DNA from: Dissulfurispira thermophila
Lineage (GTDB): Bacteria > Nitrospirota > Thermodesulfovibrionia > Thermodesulfovibrionales > Dissulfurispiraceae
Reading direction: 5' to 3'
Assembly: GCF_014701235.1 (NCBI RefSeq)
Contig: NZ_AP022873.1
Location: 1,612,001-1,676,000 of the forward strand
DNA length: 64,000 nt
Position 1 is the first letter of the stretch, and every line of letters starts with the position of its first letter. Made by a program: the position numbers and the translations under genes. Under the pieces are notes generated by a model. The model was not told the DNA's origin. It made no database searches and was given only the letters and a program-made list of their open reading frames with translations. Below are positions 33,993 through 47,579 of the stretch, one piece after another.

Positions 33993-36503
33993 TTATAATA
34001 CCTTACGCTTAAGCCTCAAAGAATTACTCACAACAGATACAGAACTAAAAGCCATTGCTGCTGAAGCAATCATTGGATTCAGCAGTGGTCCCCCAAACGG
34101 ATAGAGAAGACCTGCTGCAATCGGAATTCCTACTACATTATAAAAAAATGCCCAGAATAAATTCTGCTTGATTGTTTTAATTGTAAGCTTACTTAATTTA
34201 ATGGCATCAACTACACTTTTCAGATTTCCCTTAATTAAGGTTATATCAGATGCCTCAATGGCTATATCAGTGCCAGTGCCCATAGCAATTCCTACATCTG
34301 CCTCTGCGAGAGCTGGTGCATCATTAATACCATCACCAACCATTGCTGTTATCTTACCCTCTGACTTTATCTTCCTCACAACCTCAACCTTTTGATCAGG
34401 CAAAACCTCAGCAAAAAATCTTTTAATTCCAACCTGAGCAGCAATTGCACCAGCAGTATTCTGATGGTCACCTGTAAGCATTATAATCTCTATACCCATT
34501 GATTTAAGTAATCCTATTGCCTCTATAGAGCCTTCCTTTATTGTATCAGCAATGGAAAAGACAGCTTTAATCTCATTATTTACAGACATAAAAACAGGTG
34601 TTTTAGCCTCAGATGATATTTTATCAGACAATGTCTTTACAGTCGAGATATTTATACCTTCACCCTGCATCATACTTTCATTGCCAATGAATACAACATC
34701 AGGCACCGTGTGTGCAACATCGTTAGACTTACCCCCGATGTTTGACAACTGACGCATTTTTGCCTTTATTCCGCCACCCGGCACAGCAACAAATTCTATT
34801 GGTTCAAAGATTTCAAGACCATTCTCAACCGCCTTCCTTACAATTGCCTGACCAAGTGGATGCTCAGACAGTTTTTCAGCCGATGCAGCAATTTGTAATG
34901 CGTGGTGAATTGGTGAATCAGCAAATCGTGTCTCCGTGTCTTCGCTTCTTTGTTTCTCTATTTCATTTAATACTATAACTTCCACCACCTCAGGTTCACC
35001 TTTTGTTATAGTTCCTGTTTTGTCTAAAATCACAGCCTGAATCTTATGAGATAATTCCAGAGCCTCGGCATCTCTAATAAGAATACCTCTCTCTGCCCCT
35101 TTACCTGTACCAACCATTATCGCTGTTGGTGTAGCAAGTCCTAATGCACACGGACAGGCTATAATCAAAACTGCAATAAAATTCATCAATGCAATGGTAA
35201 ATGAAGGCTTTGGAGCAAAGACAAACCACACAAAGAAGGTAACAATAGCAATACCTATTACAGTTGGAACAAATATGGAGGCAACTTTATCTGCAAGTCT
35301 CTGGATAGGTGCTTTACTGCCCTGCGCTTCTTCAACAAGCCTTATTATCTGAGCAAGGGCTGTCTCTTTACCAATCTTTAATGCCTTGAGCTTGAAACTG
35401 CCTGCTTTATTCACAGTGCCACCAAACACCTTGTCGCCATTTAATTTTTCCACAGGCAGGCTCTCGCCTGTAAGCATGGATTCATCCACTGTAGAATATC
35501 CATCTACAACCTCACCATCAACAGGTATTCTTTCTCCTGGCCTGACGATTACTATGTCCCCTATCATTAATTCTTCTACAGGCACTTCCTTTTCAATACC
35601 ATCTCTCAATACAGTAGCTGTCTTTACCTGAAGTCCCATGAGCTTCCTTATAGCCTCTGATGTTTTTCCTTTTGCACGAGCCTCAAGCATTCTGCCAAGA
35701 AGAATAAGGGTTATTATTGTTGCAGATGTATCAAAATATACATGAGGGATTATGCCACCCTTGAAAAATAACTGCGGCATAAAAGTAGCAAAGAGACTAT
35801 ATATATATGCAGATGTTGTTCCAACACTTATAAGTGTATTCATATTGGATGTACGATGTTTGAGAGCCATAAGTGCTGCCCTGTGAAACCTCATGCCACT
35901 CCAGAACTGTACAGGAGTTGCAAGAAGGAATAATAAATACCTGCTTGACAGTATAGGTATTGTAAGCATGCTTCCAATAATAACAGGCACTGTGAGTATA
36001 GCACTAACAATGAATTGTCTCTTTAATGCACGGAGTTCCTTTTCTCTTTGTATCTGCTCTTTATCAATAAATTCTTCTGTTATCTGTAAAGCAGTATAAC
36101 CTGCCTCCCTGACCGTTTTTTTGAAGTCTTCAAACCCAACTATTGTGGGGATATACTCAACAGTAGCTTTTTCTGCAGCAAGATTAACTGTGACATCAAT
36201 TACTCCATAAAGCCCCTTCAATGCCCTTTCTACTGCCCCAACACATGCAGCGCATGTCATCCCCTTTACAGCAAAGTCCATTTTAACGACAGACACACCA
36301 TAGCCTTCATCTTTTATTACATCAATTATGGCATGTAAGGGAATAGGGTTTTCAGGATTTGCAAATTCTACAGTTGCCCTCTCTGCTCCAAAATTTACCA
36401 CAGCACTTTTTATTCCTTCTATCTTTGGCAGTGCCTTTTCAATAGCAGCAGCACATGCAGCACATGTCATTCCAGTAATAGGTATATCTATTTTATTAGG
36501 CAT
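33993..36503 (-). CDS. copA: Copper-transporting P1B-type ATPase
   Basis: 836 aa. Two N-terminal heavy-metal domains, each with CAAC ([15 protein letters not shown] and [15 protein letters not shown]). Membrane domain with [15 protein letters not shown] and the [10 protein letters not shown] copper motif. Actuator TGESLPVEK, phosphorylation [11 protein letters not shown] near residue 494, and [20 protein letters not shown]. Two stretches in the nucleotide domain look like insertions: about residues 514-535 ([20 protein letters not shown]) from a 7-mer repeat, and about 584-597 ([14 protein letters not shown]) from a small palindrome. The start has no ribosome-binding site. Exports Cu(I) by analogy. 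Confidence 0.95.
34718..34756. repeat. Small palindrome inserted in copA
   Basis: AACATCG and CGATGTT arms flank a 13-bp loop, inside the copA frame, encoding residues that do not resemble this part of P1B ATPases. Confidence 0.45.
34901..34965. repeat. Heptamer-repeat insertion in copA
   Basis: Units such as TGGTGAA, CGTGTCT and TCGCTTC run with a 7-bp period for about 60 bp and keep the copA frame open. They lie between the phosphorylation site and the helix that carries [10 protein letters not shown]. Confidence 0.6.
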
Positions 36504-38197: not shown

Positions 38198-38924
38198 TAA
38201 TCATTCCTGATATTTTCTCTATTGTTGTATAGTACTTTTTAAAAATTTCGACAAGTGCTGGTTTTGAAGGCTTGATCTGTCCATTTCTTAAAAGAAGCAA
38301 CTCTTCAAATACGTCAGAATCAGCAAATACACCCTGTATTGTCTTAATAACATCATGCCTCATAACAGGAGGCTCTTTACCTAAAAGGTAGATAATTGCC
38401 CTAAATAAAGGTATGCATCCTGTAAATGATTTTATAAGAAGTGTAGAAATGAGCTCTTTGTCACCACTACAACCAATATATCCCTGCCTAATACCTATAA
38501 GCTTAATCTTTATATCCCTTTCGCATTGCAATCGCAGATGTTCATGATTAATTTGCAGTTCTTTAAGTATATCCTCTCCATAAATAGTTTTATGTATCAA
38601 CCTGAAGTCATGAAATTCTATGGGAAACACATCAAGGGAGTTCTTTATATAATCAAGTGTCATAATTAAAGGAGCTGCAATCCTTTTTTTACCATACTTT
38701 TTCCCCAAAGGAGCAAGGAATTCCATAAAATCAAAGCTTATTTTACTGAGGACTATAACAGAGTTTATATCAGATGTCTTTTCATTAAAATCAGCCGTAA
38801 CAGCACTTCCAACTATATAGATAGAGTGTATATCCTGTTCATATCCTTTCAAGACAACCTCGACAAAAGGCCTTATTCTATTTGAGACAACAGGATTTAT
38901 TCCTTCGAGATTTATTGTTTTCAT
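38181..38924 (-). CDS. Degenerate nucleotidyltransferase-like protein
   Basis: 247 aa from ATG 38924 (AAAGGA upstream); the open frame extends seven codons further to a TTG. A GSAVTADFNEKTSDINSVIV segment resembles the GSx10DxD motif of nucleotidyltransferases but has DxN in place of DxD, so it may be inactive. The rest is helical with no recognised domain. Its first 60 bp are duplicated exactly at 39814-39873, just beyond the MntA-HepT pair. It is cotranscribed with HepT upstream and the TPM gene downstream. Confidence 0.7.
   Translation of the reverse strand: MKTINLEGINPVVSNRIRPFVEVVLKGYEQDIHSIYIVGSAVTADFNEKTSDINSVIVLSKISFDFMEFLAPLGKKYGKKRIAAPLIMTLDYIKNSLDVFPIEFHDFRLIHKTIYGEDILKELQINHEHLRLQCERDIKIKLIGIRQGYIGCSGDKELISTLLIKSFTGCIPLFRAIIYLLGKEPPVMRHDVIKTIQGVFADSDVFEELLLLRNGQIKPSKPALVEIFKKYYTTIEKISGMINELTS
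38865..38924. repeat. 60-bp direct repeat, copy inside the nucleotidyltransferase gene
   Basis: Exact 60-bp match to 39814-39873, same orientation, encoding the first 20 residues (MKTINLEGINPVVSNRIRPF). The segment between the copies holds hepT and mntA. Confidence 0.85.
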
Positions 38925-38931
38925 AAAAATA

Positions 38932-39267
38932 TTATCCTTTATCAAGAATATCCTTTATAAATTGCTTTAGTGTAGACAAACGTTTTTTAATAGTCTGCCA
39001 TACCAACTCATATTTTATACCAAAATAAAAATGTATCAACTTATCTCTAAAAGCAGCCATCTCCCTCCATGGCAACTCAGGATATTTTGCTTTTAGGTCT
39101 TCAGGAAGACCTTTGACTGCTTCTCCAATGATTTCGAACTTCCTGATTACTGCGCTTGTTTTTTCATCGTTATTCTTAAACCCTTCAAAATCAACTCCCT
39201 CAACAAATTTCTCAATTGCAGAAATAGCTTCAAGGATATCTTTGAGCAATAATTCTGGATCCCTCAT
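38932..39267 (-). CDS. hepT: HepT-like toxin RNase (DUF86)
   Basis: 111 aa HEPN-fold protein. The RNase motif Rx4HxY is intact as RDKLIHFY near residue 73. IEKFVEGVDFEGF and FEIIGEAVKGLP are typical of the family. It overlaps the end of the nucleotidyltransferase antitoxin gene by 4 bp. HepT-MntA is a toxin-antitoxin pair in which MntA adenylylates HepT. Its activity here is inferred. Confidence 0.92.
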   Translation of the reverse strand: MRDPELLLKDILEAISAIEKFVEGVDFEGFKNNDEKTSAVIRKFEIIGEAVKGLPEDLKAKYPELPWREMAAFRDKLIHFYFGIKYELVWQTIKKRLSTLKQFIKDILDKG

Positions 39268-39566
39268 ACAGAAACGGTCTCCTTTAATATTCTTTTCTTC
39301 AACTCTGGTCTAACCATGTCCCGAGGGACTACATCAACCTTTCTACCAAGTTTTTCTTCAAGAAAGATAGAAAGGCCAACAAAGTCAAAAAGATCAGCAT
39401 CTTCATTAAACTCAACAAGGATATCAATATCGCTTGATTTTTTCTCTTCGCCACGAACGAAAGACCCAAATATGCCCACTACCTCTGCTTTATATTGTGT
39501 CTTAATTTTTTCTTTCAAAGAATTAATCGAATCTATTATTTCTTTTAATGATATTACTTTCTCCAT
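39264..39566 (-). CDS. mntA: MntA-like nucleotidyltransferase antitoxin
   Basis: 100 aa. Nucleotidyltransferase motif GSFVRGEEKKSSDIDILVEF with GS and DxD intact, and FDFVGLSIFLEEKLGRKVDV. It is the antitoxin partner of the HepT gene that overlaps it. A GGAAC ribosome-binding site lies before the ATG. Confidence 0.92.
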   Translation of the reverse strand: MEKVISLKEIIDSINSLKEKIKTQYKAEVVGIFGSFVRGEEKKSSDIDILVEFNEDADLFDFVGLSIFLEEKLGRKVDVVPRDMVRPELKKRILKETVSV

Positions 39567-39720
39567 TATTTGTTCCTTTCAGATTAGGATACCTTCTTTT
39601 ACATCTATTATATCAAAACTATTAAGCCTGAATTGCGCAAGGATTATTCATATGTCATTCCTTCACGGAGCCAGTCCTGAGCAACTGCGAAGGATTCAGG
39701 ACAGCGTCTGAGGGATAAAG

Positions 39721-39780
39721 CCCCAATTTAGCTGTTAGCTCATAGTTGTAAGCTACAAACTATGAGCTATAAGCTAATAT
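39721..39780. repeat. Inverted heptamer-repeat hairpin
   Basis: TTAGCTC/TAAGCTA/TGAGCTA-type units, 7-bp period. The arms AGCTCATAGTT and AACTATGAGCT pair perfectly over 11 bp around a 10-bp loop. Confidence 0.7.
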
Positions 39781-39813
39781 CAATAAATAGAACCGTCCCC
39801 TTTTCCCAGAGAT

Positions 39814-39873
39814 AAAAGGCCTTATTCTATTTGAGACAACAGGATTTATTCCTTCGAGATTTATTGTTTTCAT
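39814..39873 (-). pseudogene. Duplicate 5' end of the nucleotidyltransferase gene
   Basis: Exact 60-bp copy of 38865-38924. It begins with ATG (complement at 39871-39873) and encodes the first 20 residues, then the similarity stops at a GTCCCC-containing stretch. It is probably the original 5' end of the gene, with the MntA-HepT block inserted after it. Confidence 0.8.
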
Positions 39874-40084
39874 GTCGTAATTATAGCATATTTAAAACCT
39901 CTCACAGCGAATATTAAACTCAAATTTAACTATGGCATCAGGTGTGCTGAAAAAACTTTACATTAGCTCAGAAGTCAAATTATGGAAGAAATCTTCCTTA
40001 AAAAACTTCTGCGCTTCCGTGCTTAGTGCTACACACCTGCTGCCATGCTTTGCGCAATTCAGATTAAACTCTCCAAAATTAATC

Positions 40085-40114
40085 TTGACATTATTTATAC
40101 GCACCACATATAAT
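40085..40114 (+). promoter_or_regulatory. Consensus sigma-70 promoter of the NifX-like operon
   Basis: TTGACA (40085-40090), an 18-bp spacer and TATAAT (40109-40114). Both hexamers are perfect. The transcription start falls inside the palindrome that follows. Confidence 0.85.
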
Positions 40115-40126
40115 GTGCATATGCAC
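40115..40126. promoter_or_regulatory. 12-bp palindrome at the operon start site (operator-like)
   Basis: GTGCATATGCAC is a perfect palindrome lying directly after the -10 box, where a repressor would block initiation. The DUF134 protein at the end of the operon is a candidate regulator; this is inferred from position. Confidence 0.65.
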
Positions 40127-40146
40127 GAAATTAAGGAGGTATGATT

Positions 40147-40518
40147 ATGAAGATATGTTTTCCGGTACAAAAAGATGAAGGTCTTGATAGTAAGGTATTT
40201 AACCATTTTGGCTCTGCATCAATGTTTCTTGTTATTGATACAGAAACAGATGAAGTGTCTGTAATCAACAACAAGGATATGCACCATATGCACGGGGCAT
40301 GCAATCCAATTAAGGCTCTTGACGGACAAAAAGTAGATGCAATAGTTGTAGGGGGAATTGGTGCAGGTGCCTTATCTAAGCTCAATCAGGCAGGTATAAG
40401 GGTTTATCAGGCAAAGGCATCGACAGTGAAGGATAACATAGCAGTGTTTATGGTACATTCCCTTCCTGAGTTTATGATTCAAAATTGCTGCAGCAGCCAC
40501 GCAGTTTGTAGACATTAA
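40147..40518 (+). CDS. NifX/NifB-type dinitrogenase iron-molybdenum cofactor domain protein
   Basis: 123 aa from the ATG at 40147; the ATG two codons earlier (40141) is too close to the GGAGG. Domain marks: ICFPVQKDEGLDSKVFNHFG, SASMFLVIDTET and VDAIVVGGIGAGALSKLNQ. The C-terminus is Cys/His-rich (NCCSSHAVCRH). This small domain also occurs in stand-alone proteins next to DUF134 and NifB-like or ATPase proteins; there is no nitrogenase here, so a metal-handling role is likelier than nitrogen fixation. First gene of a four-gene operon. Confidence 0.9.
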   Translation: MKICFPVQKDEGLDSKVFNHFGSASMFLVIDTETDEVSVINNKDMHHMHGACNPIKALDGQKVDAIVVGGIGAGALSKLNQAGIRVYQAKASTVKDNIAVFMVHSLPEFMIQNCCSSHAVCRH

Positions 40519-40530
40519 GAGGAGGAATTT

Positions 40531-40941
40531 ATGCAATACGCTAATCTATATAAGGCTGAGACATTAAAATCTATAAATAGGTTTGTAAAAGATTTAGGCA
40601 CAGCAGCAAAAAAGCGTGGCTTTATAATCCATAATGAGGATAAGATGGAGATGGCTCACTCTTTTGGGAAACACGGAGTAAAAGTGGCTGAAGGCTTTGA
40701 TCTGCATATGATACAGATATGTAAACCAGAAAAGGCTGCGAAGAGTCTAAGTAAAAATTTAGAAAGGGCAATATTGATGCCCAAATTTGTTATGACATTC
40801 ACAAAGGATGGTAAAACACAAATAAGATTTTTGAGTTATGGCAAGGACTTGATAAAAATCCTTGTTGATGATCCTGAGTTTCCTGACTCACTGGAGGAGA
40901 CATATAAAAATATAATAGCAATGATTGAAGAGGCAAAATAA
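40531..40941 (+). CDS. DUF302 domain protein
   Basis: 136 aa. The sequence AAKKRGFIIHNEDKMEMAHS, LHMIQICKPEKAAKSLSKNL, ERAILMPKFVMTFTKDGKTQ and IRFLSYG fits the DUF302 family, which often accompanies thiol or metal-related genes. A GAGGAGGAATTT ribosome-binding site lies upstream. Function unknown. It is 12 bp after the NifX-like gene. Confidence 0.85.
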   Translation: MQYANLYKAETLKSINRFVKDLGTAAKKRGFIIHNEDKMEMAHSFGKHGVKVAEGFDLHMIQICKPEKAAKSLSKNLERAILMPKFVMTFTKDGKTQIRFLSYGKDLIKILVDDPEFPDSLEETYKNIIAMIEEAK

Positions 40942-40968
40942 CCCCCTGTGTACTGCCATCTTCAGAAA

Positions 40969-40990
40969 GGGATGCTGTTTACAGCATCCC
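40969..40990 (+). terminator. Strong hairpin between DUF302 and the transporter gene
   Basis: A perfect 9-bp stem (GGGATGCTG / CAGCATCCC) with a 4-nt loop. No T-run follows, so it is more likely a processing or stability element, or a weak attenuator, than a complete terminator. Confidence 0.5.
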
Positions 40991-41014
40991 TGAAATCTTA
41001 AAGAGGTGATTAAG

Positions 41015-41968
41015 ATGTGGAATATCCTTTTGAAGATAAGTAAAAACCTTGTCTTAGCAATACCATCCATGATGGTTTTGGGCTTTATATTTGGTCTTTA
41101 CTCAAAAACAGCTATTCTGAAAAATCTCATAGTGCCTTTTACATTTCTAATGGTCTATCCCATGATGGTAACACTAAAAATTAAAAAGGTCCTCGAAGGT
41201 GGTGACACAAAGGCACAGATATTAACCCAGGCAATAAACTTCCTTATTATTCCTTTTATTGCCTTTGGTATAGGAAAAATATTCTTTTCTGACAAACCAT
41301 ATATGGCACTCGGTCTTTTATTAGCTGCTCTTGTGCCAACAAGTGGAATGACAATATCATGGACGGGTTTTGCAAAAGGAAACATCGAGGCTGCTGTTAA
41401 AATGACGGTTATAGGACTAACACTCGGCTCTCTTGCAACGCCTTTTTATGTTCAGTTTTTGATGGGTGCCCATGTAGAGGTAGAAATAATAAATGTCATG
41501 AAACAGATTGCATTTATCGTGTTTCTTCCTATGACAACAGGTTATATAACCCAGCAATTATTAATAAAAAAATTTGGACAGAAAGGTTTTCAAGAAAGAT
41601 GGGCTCCGAGATTTCCATCTCTGTCAACACTCGGGGTCCTTGGGATAGTATTCATAGCCATAGCCCTAAAAGCCAGATCAATAGCCAACTCTCCTCAGTT
41701 ACTGCTTTATATCTTCTTGCCGCTTTTATTACTATATGCGATTAATTTTTTATTGAGCACATTTATAGGCAAAGCCCTTTTGCCAAGGGGTGATGCAATA
41801 GCCCTTGTTTACGGTACAGTAATGAGAAATCTCTCCATAGCCCTTGCAATAGCAATCAATGCCTTTGGTATTGCTGGTTCTGATGCAGCATTGGTAATAG
41901 CTATTGCATATATAATACAAGTTCAATCAGCAGCATGGTATGTGAGGTTTACAGATAAGGTCTTCTGA
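41015..41968 (+). CDS. Arsenite/bile-acid-type (ACR3/BASS family) transporter
   Basis: 317 aa from ATG 41015, set by AGAGGTG just upstream (a GTG at 41006 is an alternative). About ten membrane segments: LVLAIPSMMVLGFIFGLYSK, FLMVYPMMVTLKIKKVLEGG, MALGLLLAALVPTSGMTISW, VQFLMGAHVEVEIINVMKQI and VMRNLSIALAIAINAFGIAG. The fold resembles the ACR3 arsenite exporter / bile-acid symporter superfamily; substrate not determined. Third gene of the NifX-like operon. Confidence 0.85.
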   Translation: MWNILLKISKNLVLAIPSMMVLGFIFGLYSKTAILKNLIVPFTFLMVYPMMVTLKIKKVLEGGDTKAQILTQAINFLIIPFIAFGIGKIFFSDKPYMALGLLLAALVPTSGMTISWTGFAKGNIEAAVKMTVIGLTLGSLATPFYVQFLMGAHVEVEIINVMKQIAFIVFLPMTTGYITQQLLIKKFGQKGFQERWAPRFPSLSTLGVLGIVFIAIALKARSIANSPQLLLYIFLPLLLLYAINFLLSTFIGKALLPRGDAIALVYGTVMRNLSIALAIAINAFGIAGSDAALVIAIAYIIQVQSAAWYVRFTDKVF

Positions 41969-42024
41969 ATGCTGTTATCAGTAGAGGTGCTGTAGTTTTT
42001 GGGGTTATTATGCGATAATATTAA

Positions 42025-42330
42025 ATGCCGAGATACAAAAAACCAAGAAAATGCAATTGTCCATATGAAGGTCAGAGGGGAATGATTTATAAACCTATAG
42101 GCATTCCTATGACCGAACTCCAACATATTACAATCTACCGTGACGAACTCGAGGCAATGCGTTTATGTGATTTGCTTGATATGACTCAGGAAACTGCTGG
42201 AAACAAAATGGGCATATCGAGAGGCACTGTGCAGAGGCTTCTTTCAAGTGCAAGAAAAAAGATTATAAAGGCTGTAGCAGAACGCAAGGCATTATGTATT
42301 GAAAAAGAAGAAAACACAAAACCTACCTGA
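42025..42330 (+). CDS. DUF134 helix-turn-helix protein
   Basis: 101 aa. The Cys-rich start PRYKKPRKCNCPYEG is followed by YKPIGIPMTELQHITIYRDE, LEAMRLCDLLDMTQETAGNK and a helix-turn-helix (MGISRGTVQRLLSSARKKII). DUF134 proteins commonly lie beside NifX-like proteins, so this is the probable regulator of the operon. The ribosome-binding site is weak. The 3' end converges with the MFS gene (5-bp gap). Confidence 0.9.
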   Translation: MPRYKKPRKCNCPYEGQRGMIYKPIGIPMTELQHITIYRDELEAMRLCDLLDMTQETAGNKMGISRGTVQRLLSSARKKIIKAVAERKALCIEKEENTKPT

Positions 42331-42335
42331 TATTG

Positions 42336-43856
42336 TTAATGCATTGCTGATGGTGCACCGCCTCTGCCCTTTTTCATAAGTAGCACAAGAGGTAAAATGC
42401 AGATCATTATAATGCTTGTCAGATAAAAGGCGTCGTTAAATGACATCATTGATGCCTGCCTTAATAATTCTCTATAAATAAATGCATAATCCTGAAGAGA
42501 CTCGGACAGACCTTTGTAATTCATAATCTGTGCTGTGTGTTCAGTAGCAATCTGGTAGTTTCTATCAAAAGGCGTGAGGTGTTCAATAAGCCTAAATTGA
42601 TGAAACTGGGATTTCTGCGATAATATTGTGGTCACAAAGGCAACACCAAAACTACCGCCTAAATTTCTTAAGAGATTATATACAGCAGCAGCATTACCCA
42701 TGTCCTCCTTCTTAATACCAGACATCGTGAGTGTAGTAAGAGGAACAAAAAAGAATCCCATTCCTATACCAAGTACTATTCTTGGTATAGAAATAGTGTA
42801 AAAGTCAGCATAAAGATTAAAGTGAGACATCAAATATACAGCATACGCACAAACTATAATCCCAGTTGATAAAAGTATCTTGGGATTAATCCATGTCATA
42901 AGCCTTCCAGTAATAATAAGCGTTATCATTGTTGCAATACCGCCCGGACCAAGCACCCAACCTGATAGTGTTGCTGTATATCCCATAAGCGTCTGCAAAT
43001 ATATAGGCAAGAGCACAATGCTTGCAAAAAGATTGAAAAAACCAAAAAACATCACAATACTTCCTGTTGTGAAAGAGATATTTTTAAAGACCCTAATGTT
43101 TACAATCGGTTGTTCTGTAAACATCTCCACAACTATGAAAAGAACAAGCGAAATTGCAGATATAATGCTCAATGTTACAATAAATCCAGATGCAAACCAG
43201 TCTTCCCTCTCTCCTTTATCAAGAACTATTTGGAGGCATCCAAGTCCAATGGCAAGAAGCGCAAGTCCCCAATAGTCTATCTTCATCTTCACCCTCTTCA
43301 TATATGGTGGATCTATGATAAAAAATATGGTCATTAGTATTGAGATCACCCCTATTGGGATATTTATATAGAATATCCAATGCCATGACCAATTGTCTGT
43401 AATCCACCCACCAAGAAGAGGGCCAATAATAGGACCAAACATTATTCCAACGCCAAATATCGCCATTGCCATACCATGCTGATAAGGAGGGAATGTTTCC
43501 AAAAGAATAGATTGTGATAATGGTTGAAGCGCACCGCCGCCAATACCTTGCAAGACCCTAAAAAAGACAAGGCTCTGAAGATTCCATGCAGAGCCACACA
43601 AAAAAGAGCTAACAGTAAATAATGTTATAGAAAATATCAGGTAGCGCTTTCTGCCAAATACCCTACTTAACCAGCCTGTCATAGGAATTATAATTGCATT
43701 GGATACAAGATAGGATGTTATTGTCCATGTAGATTCATCTATTCCTGCTGAGAGGCTGCCTCTTATATGATCAAGGGCAACATTAACAACAGAAGTATCC
43801 ACTATCTCAATAAGAGTAGGAAGCATCACAGTTAATGCAACAAGCCATTTGTTCAT
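42336..43856 (-). CDS. emrB: DHA2-family MFS drug efflux permease (EmrB type)
   Basis: 506 aa, 14 predicted membrane helices. Typical: TLIEIVDTSVVNVALDHIRG, SYLVSNAIIIPMTGWLSRVF, GRKRYLIFSITLFTVSSFLC and PIIGPLLGGWITDNWSWHWI. It is the last gene of the efflux operon and overlaps the EmrA-like adaptor by 4 bp (ATGA). Substrates unknown. An emrAB-TolC tripartite pump is the usual arrangement. Confidence 0.95.
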   Translation of the reverse strand: MNKWLVALTVMLPTLIEIVDTSVVNVALDHIRGSLSAGIDESTWTITSYLVSNAIIIPMTGWLSRVFGRKRYLIFSITLFTVSSFLCGSAWNLQSLVFFRVLQGIGGGALQPLSQSILLETFPPYQHGMAMAIFGVGIMFGPIIGPLLGGWITDNWSWHWIFYINIPIGVISILMTIFFIIDPPYMKRVKMKIDYWGLALLAIGLGCLQIVLDKGEREDWFASGFIVTLSIISAISLVLFIVVEMFTEQPIVNIRVFKNISFTTGSIVMFFGFFNLFASIVLLPIYLQTLMGYTATLSGWVLGPGGIATMITLIITGRLMTWINPKILLSTGIIVCAYAVYLMSHFNLYADFYTISIPRIVLGIGMGFFFVPLTTLTMSGIKKEDMGNAAAVYNLLRNLGGSFGVAFVTTILSQKSQFHQFRLIEHLTPFDRNYQIATEHTAQIMNYKGLSESLQDYAFIYRELLRQASMMSFNDAFYLTSIIMICILPLVLLMKKGRGGAPSAMH

Positions 43857-44944
43857 TTTTCTACTATCACTGTCGGCACAACAGACATACCAACTCGCAA
43901 TACATGCTCACTGTCTGTATCTTTATCAAATACTATCTTTACAGGTATCCTCTGCACAACCTTTACAAACTGCCCTGTAGCATTTTCAGGAGGAAAGAGT
44001 GAAAAAACTGCGCCAGTTCCTGCCATTATGCTTTCTACCCTTCCCCAGAAGATCCTTCCCGGATATGTATCAACCCTTATCTTTACTTTTTGTCCAGGTT
44101 TGATCTTTTGAAGTTGTGTTTCTTTGTAATTGGCGATAACATAAACATCTCTTAAAGGAACGACAGCCATCAAAGGCTGTCCTTGCTTTATCTGATTGCC
44201 AACCTCAACAGACTTTTTTGTTATATAGCCGTCATCAGGTGCATATATCTTTGTATATTCATAATTCAGCTTTGCTGCATCCAATAATGCCTCTTTCTGC
44301 CTTACAGAAGAAATTAATATAGCCTTTTCAACCTCTGCCTGTTTTATAGCTGTTTTTTGCGTCTCTGCAGCAATCTCTGCCTGTCTCAACTGTTCTTTTG
44401 CAGCCTTCAGTTGGGCAGTCACTACATCATATATTGTCTTTGTCTTCTCATATCTTTCCTTTGAAATAGCATCTTTTTTGAAAAGATTCTCTGCCCTCTT
44501 TATATCCTTTTCTGCCTGCTTGATGTTTGCGTCCTGGAGTTGAAGATTTGCCCTTGCTACTTCAATATAGGCATTCATCTCTGCCAGTTTCTTCTTTGAT
44601 GCCTCTATCATAATTTCGGATTGCAAAAGTTTCTTCTTTTCTGCATCAAGAATTGCTGCTGCCTCCTTTACCCTGACATCATAATCAACAGGGTCTATTT
44701 CAAGAAGAAGCTCCCCTTTTTTAACAGACTGATTGTCTTTTACATAAATCATTTTCACAGTTCCGTTGACCTTAGATGCAATGGTATGAATATTGCCCTC
44801 AACAAAGGCATCGTCTGTTGTAATGTGCGTGGCATTATAATTTAAATAAAAGTATAGTGTTAATACACTTATAAGAACAAATACACTGAAAACAATGATT
44901 GCAATCTTTTTCCGTTTGTTATTGACTATCTTTATTTCATTCAT
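43853..44944 (-). CDS. emrA: HlyD-family membrane fusion protein (EmrA type)
   Basis: 363 aa. N-terminal membrane anchor (IAIIVFSVFVLISVLTLYFY), biotinyl-lipoyl-like halves (THITTDDAFVEGNIHTIASK and IYAPDDGYITKKSVEVGNQI) and a long coiled coil (about 95-215, e.g. IKQAEKDIKRAENLFKKDAI). It bridges the MFS pump to a TolC channel. Neighbours: TolC gene upstream (21-bp gap), MFS downstream. Confidence 0.93.
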   Translation of the reverse strand: MNEIKIVNNKRKKIAIIVFSVFVLISVLTLYFYLNYNATHITTDDAFVEGNIHTIASKVNGTVKMIYVKDNQSVKKGELLLEIDPVDYDVRVKEAAAILDAEKKKLLQSEIMIEASKKKLAEMNAYIEVARANLQLQDANIKQAEKDIKRAENLFKKDAISKERYEKTKTIYDVVTAQLKAAKEQLRQAEIAAETQKTAIKQAEVEKAILISSVRQKEALLDAAKLNYEYTKIYAPDDGYITKKSVEVGNQIKQGQPLMAVVPLRDVYVIANYKETQLQKIKPGQKVKIRVDTYPGRIFWGRVESIMAGTGAVFSLFPPENATGQFVKVVQRIPVKIVFDKDTDSEHVLRVGMSVVPTVIVEK

Positions 44945-44965
44945 AAAACCCCCTTCCCCTTATCC

Positions 44966-46333
44966 TTATCGCTGGCGCTCGGTATATACAGATGCCAAAT
45001 CCTGGCCAATGGCATACATAAACCCTGCCTCTGCCTTTTTAAATTCATATAAGGCACGATAATAATTTGTCTCTGCCGTTGTAAGGAGTGTTATTGCATC
45101 AAGCACATCAGTTGCTGTGCCAACACCTTCTTCATATCTGACCTTATTAATCCTCAAATTTTCTTCAGCCTGCTCAACAGCATCCTTTGTTATCCTGATT
45201 TTTTCATCTGCGTTTTTCATATCCCGATAATTCTTCTCAACCTCAAGTTTTATATCATCAATAAGTTTATTTTTCTGTTCCAGGACTTTCTGTCTTTTGA
45301 ATCTAACTTTTGATACCTCAGCCTTTGTATTTCCACCATTGAATATATTAAGATTGGCACCAAGTATTAGCGACCAGTTATCCTCGTGTAATTGGTAACG
45401 ATTTTCTGTATAGTTATAACCACCCTGCACAAAGAATTTGGGGAAATAATCCGACTTTTTCACACCCTCTTCCAGATCTACTGCCCTCAATTCCTGCTCA
45501 ATAATGCTTATTTCAATACGCTGTTTTTCTGCTATAGTCCATGCCTTTTCTATTGACATCGCTTCACTGTCTGACTTAATCTGCACATCCTCAAGTATTA
45601 TTTCTGAATTCAATGGTCTTGACAGTATATTGTTAATCCTCGAGGCATTAACTGCCCTCATATTTTTTAAAGTCAGAAGATGTTGCCTTGCATCAGAAAG
45701 CCTCACCTGCGCCTGAAGTAGATCATTTTTTGTAATAACTCCTTCACTAAACATGTTGCGAGCAACATTTAAATGTGACTCAAGACGCTCCACCTCTTTT
45801 TGAGCAACTGCTATCAATTTCTCAGATTCGAGTGTATCAAGATACGCATTTATGAAGTCAAGGGCAACAATATTTTTCACTAAATTTATATTGAGTTTTT
45901 TTGCTTCAAGAAATGATTTTGATGCCTCGTATCGTGATGTATTTTCTCCAAATGCAAATATGCTCTGGTATGCATTAATGCCGTATGATAGATAATCCCT
46001 CTGTGAAGTATAAATCTGCTGTGCACCCATATGAGCCCCAGGTTGACGGGACAAAAAAGTCTGGCTGATATTGGCATTAATGCTTGGAAGTAATTTAGAC
46101 CTTGCAACAGCTGTGTCTTCAAGAAATATATCTCTTTCGTGGGATGCAATCTTTATTAGCCTATTGTTTTCTATTGCGATCTTCAGTCCTTCTGAGATAG
46201 TTATACGATTTATCCTCCCAAAAGTCTCATGACCTTTTTGAGACCCCTCTTCTATAGCACTGTTAGCAAAAGATTTCTCAAAATGTGTGAAAACCATTGT
46301 AAATGCGAACAGCATGATAAAAATCCTTTTCAT
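44966..46333 (-). CDS. tolC: TolC-family outer-membrane channel (third copy)
   Basis: 455 aa from ATG 46333, set by GGAGG six nt upstream; the frame extends 8 codons further. Signal peptide (IFIMLFAFTMVFTHFEKSFA). Two repeats of the outer-membrane efflux domain: RSKLLPSINANISQTF, RLSDARQHLLTLKNMRAVNA and VRYEEGVGTATDVLDAITLL. It probably serves the EmrAB-like pump that follows. Confidence 0.93.
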   Translation of the reverse strand: MKRIFIMLFAFTMVFTHFEKSFANSAIEEGSQKGHETFGRINRITISEGLKIAIENNRLIKIASHERDIFLEDTAVARSKLLPSINANISQTFLSRQPGAHMGAQQIYTSQRDYLSYGINAYQSIFAFGENTSRYEASKSFLEAKKLNINLVKNIVALDFINAYLDTLESEKLIAVAQKEVERLESHLNVARNMFSEGVITKNDLLQAQVRLSDARQHLLTLKNMRAVNASRINNILSRPLNSEIILEDVQIKSDSEAMSIEKAWTIAEKQRIEISIIEQELRAVDLEEGVKKSDYFPKFFVQGGYNYTENRYQLHEDNWSLILGANLNIFNGGNTKAEVSKVRFKRQKVLEQKNKLIDDIKLEVEKNYRDMKNADEKIRITKDAVEQAEENLRINKVRYEEGVGTATDVLDAITLLTTAETNYYRALYEFKKAEAGFMYAIGQDLASVYTERQR

Positions 46334-46349
46334 GTCATGCCTCCACCCT

Positions 46350-47579
46350 TCACTCATACCTCAATGCATCTATCGGATTAAGAAGCGATGCCTTGTATGC
46401 TGGATAAAATCCAAAAAATATCCCAACCAGTCCAGAAAAGCCAAAGGCAAGGACAATAGAAAAAGGCGAAACCACTGTTGGCCACCCTGCCATTGTCGAT
46501 ATTATCTTTGAACTGATTACACCAATAATAATCCCGACAATACCACCAATTAATGACAATGTGACAGCCTCAATAATAAATTGGAGTCTTATATCCCATG
46601 TCTTTGCGCCAACTGCCATCCTGATGCCTATCTCCCTTGTCCTCTCTGTAACAGAGACGAGCATTATATTCATTATCCCTATACCTCCAACAATGAGCGA
46701 TACAGATGCAATGGCACCAAGCAGTATGGTCATTATCCTTGTGGACTGCTCCTGCGCCTGCATCATCTGTGTAAGATTTCGAACAGTGAAATCATTTTCC
46801 TGTTTTGCTCCGATGCGGTGCCTCTGCCTGAGCAGTTCTGTTATCTGCCTCGTTGCACTATCAAGGTCTTCTAAACTTTTTGCCTTTACCATGATTATTC
46901 TCACCATTCCAGGAAAGGTAGTGCCAAAGAGCTTTTTCTGTGCAGTTGTTACAGGGACATATATTGTATCATCCTGATCCTGGCCGGTTGGCGACTGACC
47001 TTTTTTTTCAAGGACACCAATTACTGTAAAAGGGATATTTTTTATCCTCACTATATGACCAATAGGGTCTTCACCTCCAAAAAGATTTTCTACAACAGTC
47101 TGCCCGAGAAGACATACTTTTGTTGCACTATTTACATCCTGTTCTGTAAAAGACCTTCCTGCAGCAAGCCTCCAGTCTCTTACATCAAGCATACTTGGCG
47201 TTGTCCCTACAATGCCTGTTGACCAATTCTGGTGTCCATAAATAACTTGGGCAACACCATTAAGCACAGGTGCCACATTTGATACTGCTGAAGACTCCTT
47301 TAATATTGCTTCAGCATCGCCAATGCTGAGGGTTGGCTGTGTTCCAGATCCCATTCTTACTCCTCCTGCTGTTGTTGCACCGGGCAAGATAATGATCAAA
47401 TTGCTTCCGATACTCGATATCTGCTCCGAAATCCTCTTGCTTGCACCAGAGCCAACAGCAACCATTGCTATTACAGCCCCGACACCAATTATGATGCCGA
47501 GCATGGTAAGTGCCGAACGCATCTTATTCACCCTCAATGCCCTGAGTGATATTTTTAATATTGATTGAATATCAACCAT
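46350..47579 (-). CDS. MacB-type ABC transporter permease
   Basis: 409 aa. N-terminal membrane helix (SALTMLGIIIGVGAVIAMVA), large periplasmic MacB_PCD-like domain (about 45-240, with AAGRSFTEQDVNSATKVCLL) and the C-terminal FtsX-like membrane part (SLIVGGIGIMNIMLVSVTER, TREIGIRMAVGAKTWDIRLQ). In E. coli the ATPase and permease are fused in MacB; here the ATPase is a separate gene directly upstream (42-bp gap). Confidence 0.93.
   Translation of the reverse strand: MVDIQSILKISLRALRVNKMRSALTMLGIIIGVGAVIAMVAVGSGASKRISEQISSIGSNLIIILPGATTAGGVRMGSGTQPTLSIGDAEAILKESSAVSNVAPVLNGVAQVIYGHQNWSTGIVGTTPSMLDVRDWRLAAGRSFTEQDVNSATKVCLLGQTVVENLFGGEDPIGHIVRIKNIPFTVIGVLEKKGQSPTGQDQDDTIYVPVTTAQKKLFGTTFPGMVRIIMVKAKSLEDLDSATRQITELLRQRHRIGAKQENDFTVRNLTQMMQAQEQSTRIMTILLGAIASVSLIVGGIGIMNIMLVSVTERTREIGIRMAVGAKTWDIRLQFIIEAVTLSLIGGIVGIIIGVISSKIISTMAGWPTVVSPFSIVLAFGFSGLVGIFFGFYPAYKASLLNPIDALRYE

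Follow-up and report, generated by a model that had tools for sequence, protein, structure and literature searches.

A conserved palindrome at Nitrospirota promoters as a putative operator of DUF134 helix-turn-helix proteins with NifX-like partners

Introduction

In the stretch of Dissulfurispira thermophila DNA analyzed here (64,000 nucleotides of contig NZ_AP022873.1, positions 1,612,001 to 1,676,000; hereafter the window), a four-gene operon begins at a consensus promoter that is followed at once by a palindrome, and ends with the gene of a small DUF134 helix-turn-helix (HTH) protein. Which protein acts on this palindrome, and to what does the operon respond? A preliminary description of the locus had suggested a metalloid or thiol stress unit with DUF134 as its regulator.

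A literature search that covered mostly journals readable without a subscription did not return DUF134 (Pfam PF02001, UPF0251) as a regulator, and DUF134 as a whole word was almost absent from it. In the excerpts returned, a DUF134 protein is described as being without any known function (PMC7565180) and the other mention is a gene table. UPF0251 appeared there in a mutation-table entry, and the letters of the palindrome, GTGCATATGCAC, in human genetics and telomere contexts as judged from the listing.

Results

The promoter at 40,085 to 40,114 on the forward strand consists of TTGACA (40,085 to 40,090), an 18-nt spacer and TATAAT (40,109 to 40,114). As had been noted, GTGCATATGCAC follows directly at 40,115 to 40,126, covering approximately -6 to +6. 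Our sequence scan found this to be the sole 12/12 consensus match between 38,000 and 45,000, and the sites of relatives are built alike. Promoter-like matches in the same interval were at chance level (24 observed vs 25.0 expected), so that a perfect TTGACA-18-TATAAT is by itself little proof. The 2.37-Mb genome contains one exact copy of GTGCATATGCAC and 11 one-mismatch sites; among nine of the latter whose flanks were checked, none adjoins a TATAAT or is otherwise promoter-like, so that the sites checked give no support for further regulon members in this genome. A reading of the palindrome as an RNA element was rejected because there is no Rfam match at gathering score within 38,900 to 42,700 and because only approximately half of the palindrome would be transcribed, judging from the promoter.

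Pfam bears out the domain assigned earlier to each of the four genes, all on the forward strand, for DUF302 weakly. The first gene (40,147 to 40,518, with 40,147 the likely start in a frame open from 40,141) encodes a NifX-like protein with conserved cysteines and histidines, a putative sensor, which belongs to the Nitro_FeMo-Co family (PF02579; 77.9 bits vs a cut-off of 26.3). An identity as NifX proper was rejected (TIGR02663; 13.1 bits vs an equivalog cut-off of 112). It is followed by genes for a DUF302 protein (40,531 to 40,941; PF03625, 25.1 bits vs a cut-off of 23) and for a cysteine-free, ACR3-like transporter of the SBF family (41,015 to 41,968; PF01758, 97.1 bits vs a cut-off of 24.3). 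The last gene (42,025 to 42,330) encodes the DUF134 protein and proposed autorepressor (PF02001, 74 bits vs a cut-off of 27), whose nearest named relatives come from metagenome-assembled genomes of Nitrospirota/Thermodesulfovibrionales with 74 and 61% identity. Its HTH is sigma70 region-4-like according to Pfam. We rejected a sigma70/ECF factor (TIGR02937; 27.3 bits vs 42.9), as only the C-terminal region 4 part was matched. In a Foldseek search, the structure model of the protein (mean pLDDT 85.5) gave probabilities of approximately 1 to sigma region 4 and to the DeoR DNA-binding domain, and no match at E<=0.001.

Several features of the surroundings were recorded in their own right. An intergenic inverted repeat with 20-nt arms, 90% complementary, and a 10-nt loop lies at 39,728 to 39,777. 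Just 5' of the operon, on the reverse strand at 38,932 to 39,566, Pfam identifies HepT-like and nucleotidyltransferase genes, a probable HepT/MntA toxin-antitoxin pair. Further off, on the same strand (33,993 to 36,503), is a heavy-metal P-type ATPase gene named by eye as CopA type; in L057, an N-terminal fragment of a similar ATPase is encoded divergently to DUF134. Efflux genes occupy the strand opposite the operon at 42,336 to 47,579 (MFS and HlyD-type by Pfam, TolC-like and MacB-like by eye), and MFS and HlyD-like genes similar to these lie 3' of DUF134 in L054.

To examine the conservation of the palindrome, we fetched DUF134 genes above the Pfam cut-off from Nitrospirota. A script recovered 73 with distinct upstream 60-mers, of which 58 belong to the type found in the window (A) and the remaining 15 to another type (B); type A is defined by the motif LCD (56 proteins) or [LI]CD (58 genes). 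An exact GTGCATATGCAC lies within 100 bp upstream of 30/58 A-type genes; at one mismatch or fewer, the count is 37/58, and the 179 control palindromes of the same composition reached a maximum of 0 in either case. Within 3.5 kb, sites with up to one mismatch precede 50/58 A-type genes (control maximum 3). A lack of conservation with DUF134 operons had been named beforehand as what would refute the proposal, and exact copies were found within 3.5 kb upstream of 41 of the 58 genes, compared to at most one for any control. At up to two mismatches, the site precedes 53/58 A-type genes, a figure that carries less weight because the controls also score high (mean 4.7, top 39/58); the high-scoring ones probably differ from the operator at two letters and match the same sites. 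Two of the 58 genes stand at a contig end without upstream sequence. Three with upstream sequence lack a site (L049, L064 and L146); for L064 and L146, the genome has one ahead of a NifX gene instead.

The association also holds by genome. Among 395 Nitrospirota genomes, the exact palindrome is present in 44/63 with DUF134 vs 23/332 without (p = 1.6e-26), and its reversed-letter control occurs in 10/395. Nine of the 23 motif-bearing genomes without a DUF134 match were examined: in seven, the site is intragenic or adjoins a hexamer matching the -10 box at 4/6 positions or fewer, and one of the remaining two contains a shortened DUF134 frame. Additional exact sites in L124, L125, L134, L136, L137, L138 and L143 were intragenic or without a matching -10 box and were taken as chance occurrences. 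On this sequence evidence, the conserved operator of the Nitrospirota is real and very probably bound by DUF134.

Some individual sites deserve mention. In L126 (site 3556) and L127 (site 3551), the palindrome is centered in a longer inverted repeat of the GAGTTATGCTGAAAT/ATTTTAGCATAACTC type, and the L126 site precedes NapG/NapH-like ferredoxin genes. An exact operator stands at the start of a gene resembling, by eye, a PAS-domain histidine kinase in L135 (site 3491) and L142 (site 4213).

We analyzed the position of the site in 56 cases in which it immediately precedes a NifX or DUF134 gene, counting variants with as many as two mismatches. The hexamer adjoining the palindrome equals TATAAT at no fewer than 5/6 positions in 43/56, TTGACA is matched at 5/6 positions or better in 47/56 with best spacers of 17 to 20, and the spacer is 17 to 18 nt in 45/56 when ties are resolved towards 17. 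As the palindrome covers approximately -6 to +6, a dimer bound there would keep the promoter from opening. A conserved operator overlapping the protein's own promoter, one mark of an autoregulatory repressor, is what we observe. At B-type genes, a different operator, GRGCATATGCYT, fills the spacer between the -35 and -10 boxes, as in the promoter TTGACATAATTATGAGCATATGCTTATAAT. MerR-type activator sites lie in this very spacer, and by analogy DUF134 could act as an activator at its promoters. Against this speak the A-type promoters, which are near consensus with mostly 17- to 18-nt spacers, and the classic repressor position of the A-type site downstream of the -10 box; activation is very unlikely.

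The two operators follow the two protein types. The exact A operator was found at 41/58 A genes and 0/15 B genes, and GRGCATATGCYT at 10/15 B genes and 0/58 A genes. As recognition helix, 56/57 A proteins have SRGT(V/I)Q, and the 14 B-type proteins matched by the script pattern have SRxTFG. Exact operators without crossover that track the recognition helix suggest that DUF134 itself is likely the binder, and this co-variation is the strongest sign in the sequences that DUF134 reads the site. Together with the position of the site, it makes DUF134 a likely binder of the operator and autorepressor. Beyond the HTH, Cys10 is present in 55/56 and Cys12 in 54/56 A-type proteins, and both may have a role; the conservation of Cys48 follows from the definition of type A by LCD or [LI]CD, that of Cys10 and Cys12 does not.

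Alternatively, a different regulator such as an ArsR protein could bind the palindrome, with DUF134 a passenger, a sigma-like factor or a co-activator. The resemblance of the DUF134 HTH to sigma70 region 4 would fit this, as would ArsR genes in 3/54 operons and divergently in L046, L139 and L156, and the motif in 23/332 genomes without a DUF134 match. Against it, exact operators follow the DUF134 subtype, with no exchange between types. Most operons, as chained, contain no ArsR gene, the promoters already hold both sigma70 boxes, and the examined motif genomes without DUF134 have mostly intragenic sites or sites with a poor -10 box (7/9), with a shortened DUF134 frame in one more. We consider another regulator quite unlikely.

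A NifX-like protein is the usual partner of DUF134 in the Nitrospirota. Among 54 motif-headed loci, 41 contain NifX and 45 DUF134, counts conditioned by the selection of loci with either gene among the first five, in addition to four extra-site loci. In the 49 A-linked NifX proteins (125-residue numbering), C6, H49 and C54 are present in all 49, and 47 have C117 and C123; the NifX-like protein carries the motifs HHxHGxC and C-x2-H...CxH. Natural fusions of DUF134 to the Nitro_FeMo-Co domain, found in 4/30 best-scoring Clostridia loci and in two plasmid records, are encoded in L319 (4,001 to 4,774), L320 (3,941 to 4,675), L194, L205, L216 and L217, all from Clostridia; in the promoter of one fusion, TTATTGACATATGTCAATAA overlaps the -35 box. 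Based on this partnership and these fusions, the NifX-like protein is probably the sensor of the DUF134 system. As a side observation, a 405-amino acid gene product 3' of NifX in L052 resembles, by eye, a cation diffusion facilitator (CDF) with an apparent C-terminal NifX-type domain.

Outside the Nitrospirota, we sampled up to 30 best-scoring loci per group search, with taxon labels inferred from the record serving as center. Neither a fusion nor a NifX gene on the DUF134 strand within 1.5 kb was found in 15/30 best-scoring loci of Clostridia, 17/29 of the Ignavibacteria class, 29/29 of the methanogen class and 16/21 of the order Nautiliaceae, so that a nearby NifX is not a universal partner. 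Palindromes centered on CATATG showed no excess in the 29 Ignavibacteria-class, 29 methanogen-class and 21 Nautiliaceae-order best-scoring loci. In the 30 best-scoring Clostridia loci, TGACATATGTCA was found at one mismatch or fewer in three loci vs at most two for controls, and at up to two mismatches in six vs up to 11 for controls. With the site absent or weak in these four samples, the operator belongs, as far as sampled here, to particular DUF134 lineages and not to the whole family. An isolated Ignavibacteriales locus, L074, carries TTATTAGCATATGCTAATAA. DUF134 itself was present in 63/395 Nitrospirota, 77/99 methanogen-class and 93/148 Clostridia-order genomes searched.

DUF134 is also found on plasmids (187/72,556 records), 114 of them conjugative and mostly from Klebsiella and Citrobacter. 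We examined ten gammaproteobacterial plasmid loci (L309 to L318), among which the promoters of L309 and L318 and those of L312 and L315 are the same or nearly so. DUF134 is followed by NifX in 10/10, with vapBC on the opposite strand between them in L311, and nearby genes in 9/10 encode a PaaI thioesterase, a SLAC1 channel or both. Upstream of DUF134, all ten contain paired CATATG-type sites of the GCATATGC type, 22 to 29 bp apart, with variants counted: L311 has two copies of GCATAAGC, and in L314 the second site was recognized by eye. An exact GCATATGC is present at least once in 9/10. Next to the cassette, enteric plasmids also encode DUF6691, TauE/SafE, Dps and ArsR proteins, a CoA-disulfide reductase-rhodanese protein and a YeeE-like protein that scores slightly below the Pfam cut-off.

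To address the function of the regulon, operons were chained by a simple ORF script in which gene names are cluster names. One representative each was checked for DsrE, ArsR, NapG/H-like, methyltransferase, thioredoxin, CcdA, Sulf_transp and SLAC1; CDF, TlpA, CBS, PAS kinase, ChrA, Zn-ribbon and the first YeeE half were named by eye. Behind the A-type operators of the 54 loci, we found DsrE (17), thioredoxin with CcdA (4), NapG/NapH-like ferredoxins (4), SAM methyltransferase (4), ArsR (3), a YeeE/DUF6691-like pair (2), CDF (2), SBF (2), SLAC1 (1) and DUF302 (1), the last in the window only; ArsR is divergent beside three loci (L046, L139 and L156). The four-gene operon is accordingly conserved in part: the DUF134 and NifX pair recurs, and DUF302 and the transporter are local additions. 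In L128, L130 and L133, an exact operator precedes an operon of thioredoxin-like, CcdA and small Zn-ribbon genes; no DUF134 was found in these stretches, and their thioredoxin-like/CcdA operons are likely further regulon members.

These genes bear on the proposed stress function. In an arsenite or metalloid resistance unit, the transporter would export As(III), DUF134 would be an As(III)-sensing repressor through Cys10, Cys12 and Cys48, and NifX and DUF302 would sequester metal. The transporter is indeed SBF/ACR3-related and DUF134 bears cysteines, and L048 combines, following a one-mismatch operator, ArsR, a transporter of the same kind, a methyltransferase, DUF134 and a gene that looks ChrA-like by eye. 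ACR3 pumps use a cysteine in TM4 that is considered essential. The window transporter was rejected as an ACR3 arsenite pump (TIGR00832), with 85.3 and 87.1 bits vs an equivalog cut-off of 282.8 and no cysteine at all. The transporter of L048 has none either, the same D. thermophila genome encodes a closer ACR3 relative (262.3 bits, likewise under the cut-off), and both SBF (2/54) and ArsR (3/54, plus the three divergent cases) are infrequent at motif-headed loci. An arsenite unit is therefore rather unlikely, and the metalloid half of the earlier suggestion is not borne out. The thiol half gains from DsrE, the YeeE/DUF6691-like pair, thioredoxin with CcdA, SLAC1 and the CoA-disulfide reductase-rhodanese protein, which point to sulfur/thiol traffic as the common theme of the regulon and its neighbors, though in a minority of operons.

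Discussion

We propose that DUF134 is an autorepressor acting at GTGCATATGCAC, with the NifX-like protein as sensor and a thiophilic signal opening the operon, a reading to which we assign a probability of roughly 60% from the sequences. The operon would be controlled by its own last gene. DUF134, presumably as a dimer, would bind GTGCATATGCAC where transcription from a strong sigma70 promoter starts, and so block RNA polymerase. The NifX-like protein, rich in cysteine and histidine and a presumed binder of a metal or metal-sulfur cluster, would be made from the same mRNA as DUF134 and alter its affinity for DNA. The signal, either a thiophilic metal or sulfur species that are reactive or in excess, may reach the NifX protein, the DUF134 cysteines or both, upon which the operon would open and its products would handle sulfur/thiol or anion traffic. 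Several observations count against this proposal: sulfur-linked genes occur in a minority of operons (DsrE in 17/54, others in one to four each), metal-type genes (CDF and ArsR) are also present, three A-type genes with upstream sequence lack the site, and in the other groups sampled the site is not general and NifX is often missing near DUF134. What the preliminary description had claimed of DUF134, that it is the regulator acting on the palindrome, is strongly supported by conservation, promoter position and the co-variation of operator and recognition helix.

By comparison to known systems, the best sequence and structural resemblances of the DUF134 HTH are to the DeoR/SorC DNA-binding domain and sigma70 region 4. 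Unlike DeoR/SorC proteins, the window DUF134 has 101 amino acids and lacks an effector domain. ArsR/BigR-type regulators are the functional comparison for a small, cysteine-bearing autorepressor near YeeE/DUF6691-like, rhodanese and efflux genes, and the proposed action of DUF134 resembles that of these sulfur/metalloid regulators. It differs in that DUF134 matches no ArsR model and a separate NifX-like sensor is proposed.

The NifX-like protein shares its Nitro_FeMo-Co domain with MrpORP and the orange protein ORP, and solved relatives include MTH1175 and ORP. According to the excerpt of the report on MrpORP, both of its domains bind Fe-S clusters, and orp operons are sigma54-controlled (PMC6345978), in contrast to the sigma70-type promoter of the window operon.

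Because natural fusions suggest it, DUF134 and the NifX-like protein could be the two halves of a split one-component regulator, a DNA-binding half for a CATATG-centered operator and a sensor half carrying a metal-sulfur cluster; we give this an even chance. The operator, its two types of DNA specificity and the partner are what is new here for DUF134, to which the window protein belongs. With these and a plasmid-borne cassette, the DUF134 family becomes directly testable. The sensor role, if true, would provide a function for NifX-like proteins in non-fixing anaerobes. DUF134-NifX would then be a widespread, uncharacterized metalloregulator class among anaerobes, and one also disseminated by conjugative enteric plasmids.
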